Shown here piece after piece: positions 16,154 through 19,665 of a stretch of 64,000 bases of DNA. Position 1 is the first letter of the stretch. Every line of letters begins with the position of its first letter. Both the position numbers and the translations under genes were made by a program. The notes beneath the pieces are model-generated. The model did not search any database and had not been told where the DNA came from. It worked only from the letters and a program-made list of their open reading frames with translations. The stretch spans positions 1 to 64,000 of the forward strand of contig REDU01000159.1 of the NCBI GenBank assembly GCA_007693335.1. The letters are read 5' to 3'. Origin of the DNA: Ilumatobacter sp. (lineage in GTDB: Bacteria > Actinomycetota > Acidimicrobiia > Acidimicrobiales > Ilumatobacteraceae).

Positions 16154-16246
16154 GCTCCGAGCCCTCCGACGCTCCGCGGCCTGTCGTGCCCTGCGACCGG
16201 CACGGCACGGGGTCGAGCGACGTCGGGTGCGCTCGGGGTGCCCGGG

Positions 16247-16252
16247 TACGCT
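16247..16252 (+). promoter_or_regulatory. -10 box, winged-helix/TPR regulator
   Basis: TACGCT ends 7 bases before the ATG at 16260 and argues against the in-frame ATG at 16254. Confidence 0.5.
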
Positions 16253-16259
16253 GATGGAC

Positions 16260-17843
16260 ATGGAGTGGCGTTTCGCCGACTTCACGCTCGATGACGAACG
16301 TCGGGAACTCCGACGTGGGAGTACCCCTGTGCCGCTCGAGCCCCGGGCACTGGCACTGCTCACCGAGTTGGTCGAGCAGCACGACCGGGTCGTCACGAAA
16401 GAGGAGCTGCTCGACTCGGTCTGGGGCGACCGGTTCGTCAGCGAGTCCGCGCTGACCACGCAGGTGAAAGCGGTGCGACGGGCCGTTGGTGACAGTGGCG
16501 CCGAGCAGGCGATCGTCAAGACGGTGCACGGTCACGGTTACCGCTTCGTGGCGCCACTCGATGGATCAGGTCACGGGTCGGGTCGGGCGGGCAACGGGTC
16601 GGGCCGCTCTGCGCCCGTCGGTACTCCGGCCGCGATGCCGATCGACGAGAACCCGGTCGTGGCGGTGCTGCCCTTCGACGACGTGTCCTCGGGGCGGGGC
16701 AGTGTCCACCTGGCCGCCGGCCTCACGTCCGACGTCATCACCGGGCTGTCGCGGCACCGATGGCTGCGGGTGATCTCCCGGGCGATGTCGTCGGGCTATC
16801 AGGGTCTGCCCGACGCCGTGCGCAGGTTGAGCGATGACCTGGGGGTCGGGTACGTGGTCGAGGGAAACGTCTGGGTCGAGGGCCGGAGACTACGCGTCAC
16901 CGTCAACCTCACCGAGGTGGCCAGCGGTACGTGCCGGTGGGCGGAGCGGTACGAACGGGACATCGAGGACCTGTTCGACGTGCTCGACGAGATCACCGAC
17001 GTGGTCGTGGCCACCATCGAACCCGAGGTGGGATTCGCAGAGCGCCAGCGCGTGCATCGGGGTCAGCGGGCCGACCCGAGGGCGTGGGACCTGTTCCACC
17101 TCGGCGTCGACCATCTGTTCCGGTTCACCGCGCACGACAACCTCGAGGCGCAGCGGCTCTTCGATCGTGCCCGCGTCATCGACCCGGGATTCGGAGACGC
17201 TCAGGCGTGGTGGGCCTATTCGGTGGTGCTCGGGATGACGTACTGGGGAACCGAGCCCGACGGGGCCACGCTCGACGCGGCGTTGGCGGCCACCACGGTC
17301 GCGATCGGCAGCGACGACCACGATGCGGTGTTCCACATGCTCAGGGGGCGGGTGCAGTTGGCGCGCCGTGACTACCGCTCGGCATTGATCGAGAACCAGC
17401 GCGCCATCGAGCTCAACCCGACCTTCGCGGCGGCGTACTGCGGTCTGGGTGACTCGCTCAGTTGCGAGGGGCGCTACGACGAGGCGATCGAGCAGTTCAC
17501 CCGCTCGGTGGCGCTCGGTCTCCACGACCCACAGCGTTGGGCCTTCTTGTCGTACGGAGCGCTCGCCCACCTGTTGGCCGGTCGGTACGAAGAGGCCGTC
17601 GAGTGGGCCGACCAGGCTGCCGTGATCCCGAACTGTCAGTACTGGGCCCTGGCCCATCGCGTGGTGGCGCTCGCCCATCTCGGACGCACCGACGATTGCG
17701 CATCGGCGGTCGAGGCGCTCGTTCGCGACTGCCCGCACTTCACGGTCGCCTACGCCCGTCACAAGCTGTTCTACCTGAAGCGTCCCGAGCAGTTGGCGTG
17801 CTATCTCGACGGGCTCCGCGCCGCCGGCGTGCCCGAACGTTGA
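16260..17843 (+). CDS. CadC/OmpR-type winged-helix regulator with TolB-like and TPR domains
   Basis: Residues 1-100 form an OmpR/PhoB winged helix (LEPRALALLTELVEQHDRVV, then ALTTQVKAVRRAVGD and VKTVHGHGYRFVA). After a glycine/serine linker, residues about 130-255 resemble the TolB-like/FlgO domain found in CadC- and adenylate-cyclase-linked proteins (VVAVLPFDDVSSGRGSVHLA). The C-terminal 250 residues are TPR-like repeats (IELNPTFAAAYCGLGDSLSC, GRYDEAIEQF). No membrane helix separates the DNA-binding and sensing parts, so it looks like a soluble one-component regulator. The target is unknown; it precedes the methyltransferase gene by 91 bases. Confidence 0.8.
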   Translation: MEWRFADFTLDDERRELRRGSTPVPLEPRALALLTELVEQHDRVVTKEELLDSVWGDRFVSESALTTQVKAVRRAVGDSGAEQAIVKTVHGHGYRFVAPLDGSGHGSGRAGNGSGRSAPVGTPAAMPIDENPVVAVLPFDDVSSGRGSVHLAAGLTSDVITGLSRHRWLRVISRAMSSGYQGLPDAVRRLSDDLGVGYVVEGNVWVEGRRLRVTVNLTEVASGTCRWAERYERDIEDLFDVLDEITDVVVATIEPEVGFAERQRVHRGQRADPRAWDLFHLGVDHLFRFTAHDNLEAQRLFDRARVIDPGFGDAQAWWAYSVVLGMTYWGTEPDGATLDAALAATTVAIGSDDHDAVFHMLRGRVQLARRDYRSALIENQRAIELNPTFAAAYCGLGDSLSCEGRYDEAIEQFTRSVALGLHDPQRWAFLSYGALAHLLAGRYEEAVEWADQAAVIPNCQYWALAHRVVALAHLGRTDDCASAVEALVRDCPHFTVAYARHKLFYLKRPEQLACYLDGLRAAGVPER

Positions 17844-17934: not shown

Positions 17935-18702
17935 ATGAGTACTCCAATCGACCCAGCTGCACTTCGCGACGAGGTGCGGGCGAAGTACCGGGAGGTGGCC
18001 GAGACGCCCCAGGCCACGTTCCATTTCCACACCGGACGCGACCTCGCGCGGCGACTCGGCTACGACATGGATCACGTCGACGAGTTGCCCGACGTCGCGG
18101 TCGAATCGTTCGCAGGCGTCGCGAATCCGTTCGAGCTCCGCGTCGTCCAGCCCGGTGAGCGGGTGGTCGACGTGGGGTCGGGGGCCGGCTTCGACAGCCT
18201 GCTGGCGGCGCGGGCGGTGGGATCGGCCGGGGCCGTGATCGGCGTCGACATGACGTCGGAGATGTTGTCGAAGTCGCGTCTCAACGCCGAGCGTCTCGGC
18301 GTCGAGCACGTCGAGTTCAGAGACGGCATCGCCGAAGCGTTGCCGGTCGACGACGGGTGGGCCGACGTCGTGATCTCCAACGGTGTGTTCAACCTCTGTG
18401 CTGACAAGCGGGCGGCGTTCGACGAGGTGGTGCGAGTACTCCGGCCAGGGGGCACGTTGCAGTTCGCCGACATCGCGAACGGGCGGCCCGTCCCCGAGGA
18501 GGCGATGCGTGAGATCGACCTCTGGACGGGTTGAATCGCCGGTGGCCTGCCGTGTGCAGGCTGGCAGGAGATGCTCACCGAGGTCGGTTTCGTCGAGATC
18601 CGGATCGGTGATCCCGTCGATACCTTCGCGGGTGCCGGGGGCGAAGCGAATGCCAGGGCGTTCGACGTACACGGATATCCGTTCGCCGCCCGACGGCCGT
18701 GA
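17935..18702 (+). CDS. ArsM-like SAM methyltransferase, probable selenoprotein (Sec at UGA 18532)
   Basis: Reading stops at UGA 18532-18534 after 199 codons, but the same frame continues 55 codons to TGA 18700-18702 with sequence typical of the C-terminus of arsenite-methyltransferase-like proteins (IAGGLPCAGWQEMLTEVGF, then ARAFDVHGYPFAARRP). The residue before IAGG in homologues, as I recall the family, is cysteine, so UGA at codon 200 would replace Cys by selenocysteine. Motif I is VVDVGSGAGFDSLLAA (77-92), followed by GVDMTSEML and SNGVFNLC (Cys155). A hairpin with SECIS geometry follows the UGA. The GCGNP cysteine of true ArsM is GVANP here, so the methyl acceptor is uncertain. The alternative is a nonsense mutation. 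Confidence 0.75.
18532..18571 (+). promoter_or_regulatory. SECIS-like hairpin after in-frame UGA
   Basis: Six perfect pairs GCCTGC (18545-18550) with GCAGGC (18556-18561) enclose the five-base loop CGUGU. Two wobble pairs (44/62 and 43/63) extend it, and GCC 18538-18540 can pair with GGC 18563-18565 across a bulge. The loop begins 17 bases after the UGA and has G as its second base, matching the bacterial SECIS pattern of a short stem-loop directly after the codon with a G early in the apical loop. The hairpin is inside coding sequence, as in bacterial selenoprotein mRNAs. Confidence 0.6.
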
Positions 18703-18729: not shown

Positions 18730-19665
18730 TCATACGGAGCGGGAGGGGAACGGGCCGGTGTCGAGGTGCACGCCGGGCTGTCGGGCGGCCCGGCTCTCGA
18801 TGATCTGGTGCAGGACCGAGCCGACGGCCTGGGTGGCGGCACTCGGGGCCGGACGGCGTCGTCGTGCCCAGGCGACCACGCGGCGGGGGAGTTCCGGAAC
18901 ACTCACCCGGGTGAACTCGCCCGTCGGCCAGCGGGAGATGGCCGTGGCCGGCACGATGGCGGCGCCGTAGCCGTCGAACGCCAGCGAGGCCAGAAGTCGC
19001 ACGCCGTCGATCTCGGCCTGGGGTCGCAGGGTGATGCCGGCCGAGCTGGCCGCCCGATCGAGCACCCGTCGGAGTGCGGCGCCCTTCGGGGGCAGCAGCA
19101 GCGGGACGTCGTCGAGCTCGGCCAACGGCATCGAGGTGCGCCCGGCCAGGGGGTGCTTGGAGTGGGCCAGCACCAACAGGTCCTCGGCGAAGAGTGGTTC
19201 GATGAGCAGCTCGGGATCGTCCACCGGAAGGTGCACGATGGCGGCGTTCAGCTGGCCCGAGACAACGCCGGGGATGAGCGTGGACGTGCTGCCCTCGTGC
19301 ACGATGGGATGCACGAGCGGATGGGCGCGTTCCATCGCCGTGAGCAGCTGGGGCATCAGCCAGCGTGCCGTGGTGCCGATCACGCCGATCCGCGCATCGC
19401 CGGAGACCTCGTCGTCGAGCGATGCGATGTCGGCGGCGATGTCGTCGATCTCGTGGAGGATCCGCCGGGCCCGATCGACCACGCGGGCGCCTTCGTCGGT
19501 GAGGCCACCGTGGGCCCGGTCGACCAGCGTGACCCCCAGCTCCTTCTCGAGCTTGGCGACGTGACCCGACACGTTCGACTGCACGGTGAACAGTGCCCGG
19601 GCTGCGGCTGAGAAGGTGCCGTGATCGGCGATCGCGACGAGAGCGGACAACTGCCGGACATCCAT
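18730..19665 (-). CDS. LysR-type transcriptional regulator
   Basis: This 311-residue protein has the LysR winged helix at residues 1-60 (LVAIADHGTFSAAARALFTV, LEKELGVTLVDR) and a type-2 periplasmic-binding effector domain (about 90-300; RIGVIGTTARWLMPQLL). Its target is unknown. It converges on the methyltransferase gene and is divergent from the 6C RNA and plsC. The -10 box TATCGT at 19674-19679 overlaps the inverted repeat GATATC-G-GATATC (19676-19688), a likely site for autorepression, 8 bases before the ATG. Confidence 0.85.
   Translation of the reverse strand: MDVRQLSALVAIADHGTFSAAARALFTVQSNVSGHVAKLEKELGVTLVDRAHGGLTDEGARVVDRARRILHEIDDIAADIASLDDEVSGDARIGVIGTTARWLMPQLLTAMERAHPLVHPIVHEGSTSTLIPGVVSGQLNAAIVHLPVDDPELLIEPLFAEDLLVLAHSKHPLAGRTSMPLAELDDVPLLLPPKGAALRRVLDRAASSAGITLRPQAEIDGVRLLASLAFDGYGAAIVPATAISRWPTGEFTRVSVPELPRRVVAWARRRRPAPSAATQAVGSVLHQIIESRAARQPGVHLDTGPFPSRSV

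Follow-up and report, generated by a model that had tools for sequence, protein, structure and literature searches.

A very probable selenocysteine codon and SECIS hairpin within the coding region of an ArsM-like methyltransferase gene from Ilumatobacter sp.

In bacteria, SelB together with GTP and Sec-tRNA-Sec is described as binding a SECIS element in the mRNA and delivering selenocysteine (Sec) as the UGA codon enters the A site (PMC13188914). The consensus given in the same source for the bacterial SECIS comprises a loop of 3-9 nt, an upper stem of 4-16 bp, an early G, a spacing of 16-37 nt and an energy of -7.5 or lower. Selenocysteine in ArsM-like methyltransferases is already known: arsM appears among the selenoprotein families of a 2008 paper (PMC2398784), and a selenoprotein arsenite methyltransferase with the motif UxxG (NF008823/PRK11873) is listed as experimentally verified with WP_011987699.1 (PMC13188914, PMC9312934). 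The gene reported here is an added member, and its hairpin follows the published consensus.

Among the arsenite methyltransferases of solved structure are CmArsM and CrArsM; the arsenic-binding cysteines of CmArsM are given as residues 72, 174 and 224 (PMC5552862). TtArsM of Thermus thermophilus, described as distant from other ArsMs, is reported to need just one Cys to methylate As(III); the others may be substituted by histidines (PMC8649762).

The gene lies in a contig stretch of 64,000 nucleotides, which was analysed as a whole and is called the window below. The features concerned are the following.

17935..18702, + strand: ArsM-like SAM methyltransferase gene (translation, Pfam, NCBIfam below cut-off, ArsM structures and structure model)
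18532..18534, + strand: in-frame UGA, inferred Sec codon for residue 200 (alignment with CmArsM C224; UGA or Cys in relatives)
18545..18550, + strand: 5' arm GCCUGC of the probable SECIS upper stem (sequence; covariation)
18551..18555, + strand: probable SECIS apical loop CGUGU with G second (sequence; early loop G in 52/55 UGA relatives)
18556..18561, + strand: 3' arm GCAGGC of the probable SECIS upper stem (sequence; covariation)
18543..18563, + strand: lengthening of the stem by the G-U pairs 18543/18563 and 18544/18562 (predicted fold)
18538..18565, + strand: possible lower helix 18538-18540/18563-18565 (complementary here; conservation absent)

We regard it as very probable that the UGA at 18532-18534 is a Sec codon and that the hairpin past it is a bacterial SECIS within the coding region, in an ArsM-like selenoprotein. 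The basis of this assignment is computed: a UGA at a Cys position, coding selection past the UGA, Sec machinery in the genome and a stem that covaries in UGA relatives only.

With the internal UGA read through, the frame encodes 255 residues and is terminated by a second UGA at 18700-18702; under translation table 11, the first UGA ends it after 199 residues. From 18532 the bases read TGA ATC GCC GGT GGC CTG CCG TGT GCA GGC TGG CAG, so that the motif is U-I-A-G, and the UGA is aligned with the Cys of the CmArsM motif C-L-G-G, which is C224 in the alignment numbering.

The protein matches general SAM methyltransferase models of Pfam, and an ArsM-type SAM methyltransferase fold was found by Pfam, sequence alignment and fold comparison alike. 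The nearest folds were ArsM enzymes, with Z scores of 25-26 over 208-218 residues; other methyltransferases scored 20-22, a range in which further ArsM entries (20-21) were also found. The closest solved enzymes by sequence were ArsM proteins as well, CmArsM and CrArsM being about 30% identical. These two enzymes keep their arsenic-binding cysteines, whereas the window protein has Val, Gly and the Sec codon at the positions of CmArsM C72, C174 and C224, respectively, and two of the three cysteines are likewise missing from the aligned Sec rows. In NCBIfam, the four best models were PRK11873 and three methyltransferase double selenoproteins, NF041537 (ArsM/AhpD), NF041536 (ArsM/DUF2284) and NF047649 (methyltransferase/UXPK-star), all matched below their cut-offs. 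The PRK11873 score was 217 bits against a cut-off of 263: the window protein shares with this family a SAM methyltransferase with Sec in U-x-x-G, and itself lacks the equivalents of CmArsM C72 and C174. The scores for NF041537, NF041536 and NF047649 were 234, 201 and 203 bits against cut-offs of 510, 575 and 460. Unlike these proteins, the window protein ends at residue 255, covers about the first 225 profile positions and has no C-terminal fused domain.

With the equivalents of C72 and C174 missing, it is not safe to assume that the window protein methylates As(III). Since one Cys reportedly suffices in TtArsM, this activity may still be present. By its published description, to which this comparison is limited, TtArsM resembles the clade of the window protein, in which a single chalcogen is conserved together with an N-terminal stretch that contains His (FHFHTGR); the chalcogen is Cys there and Sec here. 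An assay should come before any ArsM-like selenoprotein of this part of the tree is scored as an arsenic-methylation gene.

The codon at the UGA site was compared among relatives, of which 55 have UGA and 61 a Cys codon. Among the matches listed, 30 loci of the class, including the window's own gene, and nine more were inspected at codon level; a scan of named genomes supplied 80 more loci, the best 80 of at least 578 relatives. Left out of the counts were L048, L056 (the same gene as L037), and L051 and L052, which belong to a distant UGA-bearing subfamily; L048 (G215) is apparently frameshifted just past the UGA site. Duplicates retained in the counts are L082 (the L037 gene), L040 (like L039), L050 (like L049) and L072 (like L033), and the distinct 48-base sequences number 52 with UGA and 60 with Cys. 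According to record titles, the UGA relatives belong to the Actinomycetota (Acidimicrobiia, Nitriliruptoraceae, Pseudonocardia, Rubrobacter) and further to the Alphaproteobacteria, Pseudomonadales, Chloroflexi, Dormiibacterota, Thermomicrobiaceae, Acidobacteria, Myxococcales, Longimicrobiales and Planctomycetes; the majority are metagenome bins.

A tree of 113 rows was built by a quick method with the Sec/Cys residue masked (midpoint root for drawing; L082, L049 and L050 left out). It is divided by a branch with support 99: one side holds all 52 Sec rows and 15 Cys rows, and the 46 rows on the opposite side all carry Cys. The best tree requires six Sec/Cys state changes, of which three or more fall on well-supported branches, and no direction can be assigned to them. 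The well-supported branches gave three independent contrasts, too few for a sign test.

The region 3' of the UGA behaves as coding sequence. In 14 UGA genes of this type, the differences on codon positions 1, 2 and 3 were distributed as 24/22/53% past the UGA and 25/21/55% before it, and the ratio of mean pN to mean pS was 0.41 and 0.35, respectively; as the two regions are alike in both respects, the downstream part is concluded to be coding. Furthermore, the structure model obtained from 19 relatives (pLDDT 94.8) places strands 220-224 and 245-253 past the UGA, so that the last strand of the predicted fold is encoded 3' of it. Gene finders that take the UGA as a stop will yield a 199-residue fragment without the last strands of the fold.

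The hairpin had been proposed by the initial annotation as a six-pair GC stem closed by the loop CGUGU, and the sequence bears this out: the stem 18545-18550/18556-18561 starts at the 11th base past the UGA, and the apical loop, with G as its second base, starts at the 17th. The annotation had added a possible lower helix. Its three pairs, 18538-18540/18563-18565, are indeed complementary in the window, but all three are found in only 20/55 UGA relatives, and the helix is not formed in the minimum-energy fold of 18532-18575, which contains the hairpin with the two extra G-U pairs (-18.7 kcal/mol). Compared with the consensus model, the window hairpin lies within the coding region past the UGA and agrees in loop, stem, spacing, early G and energy, so that its anatomy fits a bacterial SECIS in all the respects examined. 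One difference is that C51 and U55 do not form the inner loop pair N1-N2 which the model prefers. When the window was scanned with Rfam, nothing reached a gathering threshold, and for this reason no library SECIS family is claimed.

Taken alone, the window hairpin is unconvincing, and the case rests on the comparison among relatives. As stable a fold or better was reached by 19/200 dinucleotide shuffles (z -1.33), which is not significant. When all 1329 TGA triplets of the window were considered on both strands, an equally good hairpin of the model type followed 58 of them with the loop at 16-37 bases, and nine with the loop at 16-20 bases. These values, and the fact that the genome is a draft of 162 contigs (G000; 3.53 Mb, 93.7% complete), are what could be expected if the UGA were a plain stop codon, or the result of faulty sequencing or assembly, in a truncated or decayed gene, with a hairpin arising by chance in GC-rich DNA. 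This explanation is very improbable, as the 55 relatives with UGA at this very codon come from many phyla, coding selection persists past it and the fold requires the part that it would remove.

To the reading of the UGA as a Sec codon, the relatives add a comparison between genes that carry UGA and genes that carry Cys. A model-type hairpin was defined by at least 4 pairs, an early G, a spacing of 16-37 nt and an energy of -5 kcal/mol or lower. At this energy it was found in 51/55 UGA relatives and 7/61 Cys relatives; the counts were 47/55 and 1/61 when the loop had to lie at 16-20 nt, and 38/55 and 2/61 at the stricter limit of -7.5. G is within the first two loop bases in 52/55 UGA relatives, the exceptions being L047 (UCGAG) and L049 and L050 (CAUGC).

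Covariation was followed over a seven-pair stem in 44 UGA sequences (42 distinct), the subgroup with LPRAGW or LPREGW peptides being treated separately. In this set, 95.6% of the cells were paired and both sides had changed in four pairs. The covariation score was 0.454, a value reached by none of 500 shuffles (mean 0.192), and partners slid out of register gave 0.03-0.08. Less striking were the number of pairs changed on both sides and the number of further pair types, which were as high in 36/500 and 98/500 shuffles, respectively. Double compensatory changes were observed at columns 14/30, from G-C to C-G (19 sequences), and at columns 15/29, from C-G to U-A or G-C (15 sequences); the pair 18544/18562 is G-U or G-C in 42/42 distinct UGA sequences, and RNAalifold applied to the UGA set recovered six of the same pairs. 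By contrast, the 61 Cys sequences showed no covariation, and their 45.7% of paired cells corresponds to the shuffle level. The 15 Cys members on the Sec side of the tree had 49/105 cells paired against 355/385 in all 55 UGA members; the stem being absent from these too, its loss is not just a matter of distance. The annotation had named as its own refutation a stem that is not conserved in UGA homologues or is equally present in Cys-encoding ones. The stem is kept with compensatory changes in the former and is not kept in the latter; together with the Sec machinery of the genome, this supports the SECIS reading that it had put forward.

These data also bear on the idea that the UGA is read as Sec while the hairpin mostly follows from the conservation of a GC-rich peptide (GLPCAGW and others), the true signal being elsewhere. 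Synonymous recoding of the window stretch yields as good a hairpin in 5.6% of cases, and in the LPRAGW/LPREGW subgroup the value rises to 29-44%, as this idea would predict. The double compensatory changes at both column pairs argue against it, as do L029, L039, L040, L046 and L047, in which recodings rarely match (0 to 0.5%), and the Cys relatives of the Sec side, which lack the stem. We thus give a by-product of the peptide very little chance, and retain the hairpin as the SECIS.

Within the UGA relatives, loops CGUGC or CGUGU occur mostly with LPCAGW peptides, and UGGAA-like loops, in the same register, mostly with LLEAE-like peptides. Where the peptide is LPRAGW or LPREGW, the hairpin is apparently shifted by 2 bases away from the UGA; its stem has 4 pairs, and its loop is of the same kind (CGUGC, CGUGA or CGGGA). 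Two registers 2 nt apart are thus seen among the relatives. The second register is an interpretation, since the stem is invariant in this subgroup (10 sequences, uninformative for covariation) and the first register can be paired as well. Four relatives (L020, L083, L091 and L093) are off the common stem and registers; in the UGA copy L020, another hairpin, with the loop GGU, lies farther downstream, at 24 nt. The 55 UGA and 61 Cys relatives form a natural experiment that tells which features a bacterial SECIS has to retain: by this comparison, stem pairing and an early loop G are kept, and the stem sequence, perhaps also the register, changes.

The genome that carries the window has all four components of the Sec machinery, each above its cut-off: tRNA-Sec (65.5 bits), selB (272 bits), selA adjoining selB (401 bits) and selD (314 bits, without in-frame stop). 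Other users of Sec were also looked for in this genome. Three matches to the formate dehydrogenase model were all below the cut-off and without in-frame stop, no SelW-like protein was matched, and the search for UGSC gave no match in the genome nor in any control. The notion that UGA is an ordinary sense codon throughout the genome would account for the open frame, yet no support for it was found and its probability is practically nil, as the same gene terminates at UGA 18700-18702, the window indicates UGA as a terminator and the Sec machinery is present.

Across the class, a match at E <= 1e-20 was obtained in 117/395 genomes, with a TGA-containing match in 25. In 20 of the latter, tRNA-Sec was matched at E <= 1e-9; among the remaining five, selA is found in three and tRNA-Sec above the cut-off in one, so that part of the machinery (tRNA-Sec or selA) is present in 24/25. 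The co-occurrence of a UGA copy with tRNA-Sec is weak (20/25 versus 226/370 class genomes, p = 0.09) because 246/395 class genomes carry tRNA-Sec anyway. In the 95% complete genome of L020 (G032), selA is present and the best tRNA-Sec match is below the cut-off, at 41.4 bits. The selA match of G276 (C24:10358-11668) contains one in-frame TGA, which may be an error, a sign of decay or a recoded codon.

For the Sec reading, we infer the following course. SelB with Sec-tRNA-Sec would bind the hairpin loop and deliver Sec at the UGA. The product would be a 255-residue ArsM-like methyltransferase in which Sec replaces the third conserved Cys of arsenite methyltransferases, its selenol being positioned where ArsM has C224. 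This selenol may hold or attack the substrate, which may be a metalloid or chalcogen species.

More tentatively, the UGA-bearing side of the ArsM tree may be a separate Sec-dependent subfamily that is not made of arsenite methyltransferases, with one selenol and no Cys triad, and its substrate may be a persulfide, selenide, tellurite or some other chalcogen or metalloid; we hold this to be possible but somewhat doubtful. Rows of the Sec side have SNG at the second arsenic-binding Cys, where most canonical ArsM rows have SNC. Several Cys members have extra cysteines on both sides of the active one (e.g. AAKC...WTDC...DEWC), absent from Sec members, as if a second thiol compensated for the missing selenol. 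A chalcogen or metalloid substrate is suggested by the genes that adjoin some relatives. In flanks of up to about 1.5 kb, often shorter, an ArsR-rhodanese regulator was found at 8/55 UGA and 6/61 Cys loci, a DsrE-like gene at 8/55 and 3/61, and a metallo-beta-lactamase/rhodanese gene at 7/55 and 1/61. Pfam confirmed the ArsR-rhodanese query, one metallo-beta-lactamase/rhodanese query and one of two DsrE queries, the second DsrE query having no match. These neighbours point no more than tentatively to a chemistry of sulfur or chalcogens, because the flanks are short and none of the three kinds of query was matched in the 64-kb window. In the open-access literature we found no description of a separation between Sec-form and Cys-triad enzymes and, among papers on ArsM with UGA and on Sec in Acidimicrobiia, none that deals with this subfamily by its title and abstract; such silence is weak evidence.

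In the window itself, the methyltransferase gene is preceded by a winged-helix/TPR regulator (16227-17843, + strand) and followed by a convergent LysR regulator (18730-19665, - strand); neither was found to accompany the methyltransferase as a rule.

Another ArsM-like methyltransferase, more distantly related, also has UGA at the Cys position, in the motif AWAG[UGA] or VAG[UGA]. It was observed in L057 (554-1327, TGA 1109) and L081 (3202-3765, TGA 3757), in both cases beside the first UGA gene, and in L051 and L052 (G195). A hairpin past its UGA is clear in L057 and L052 and weak in L051.
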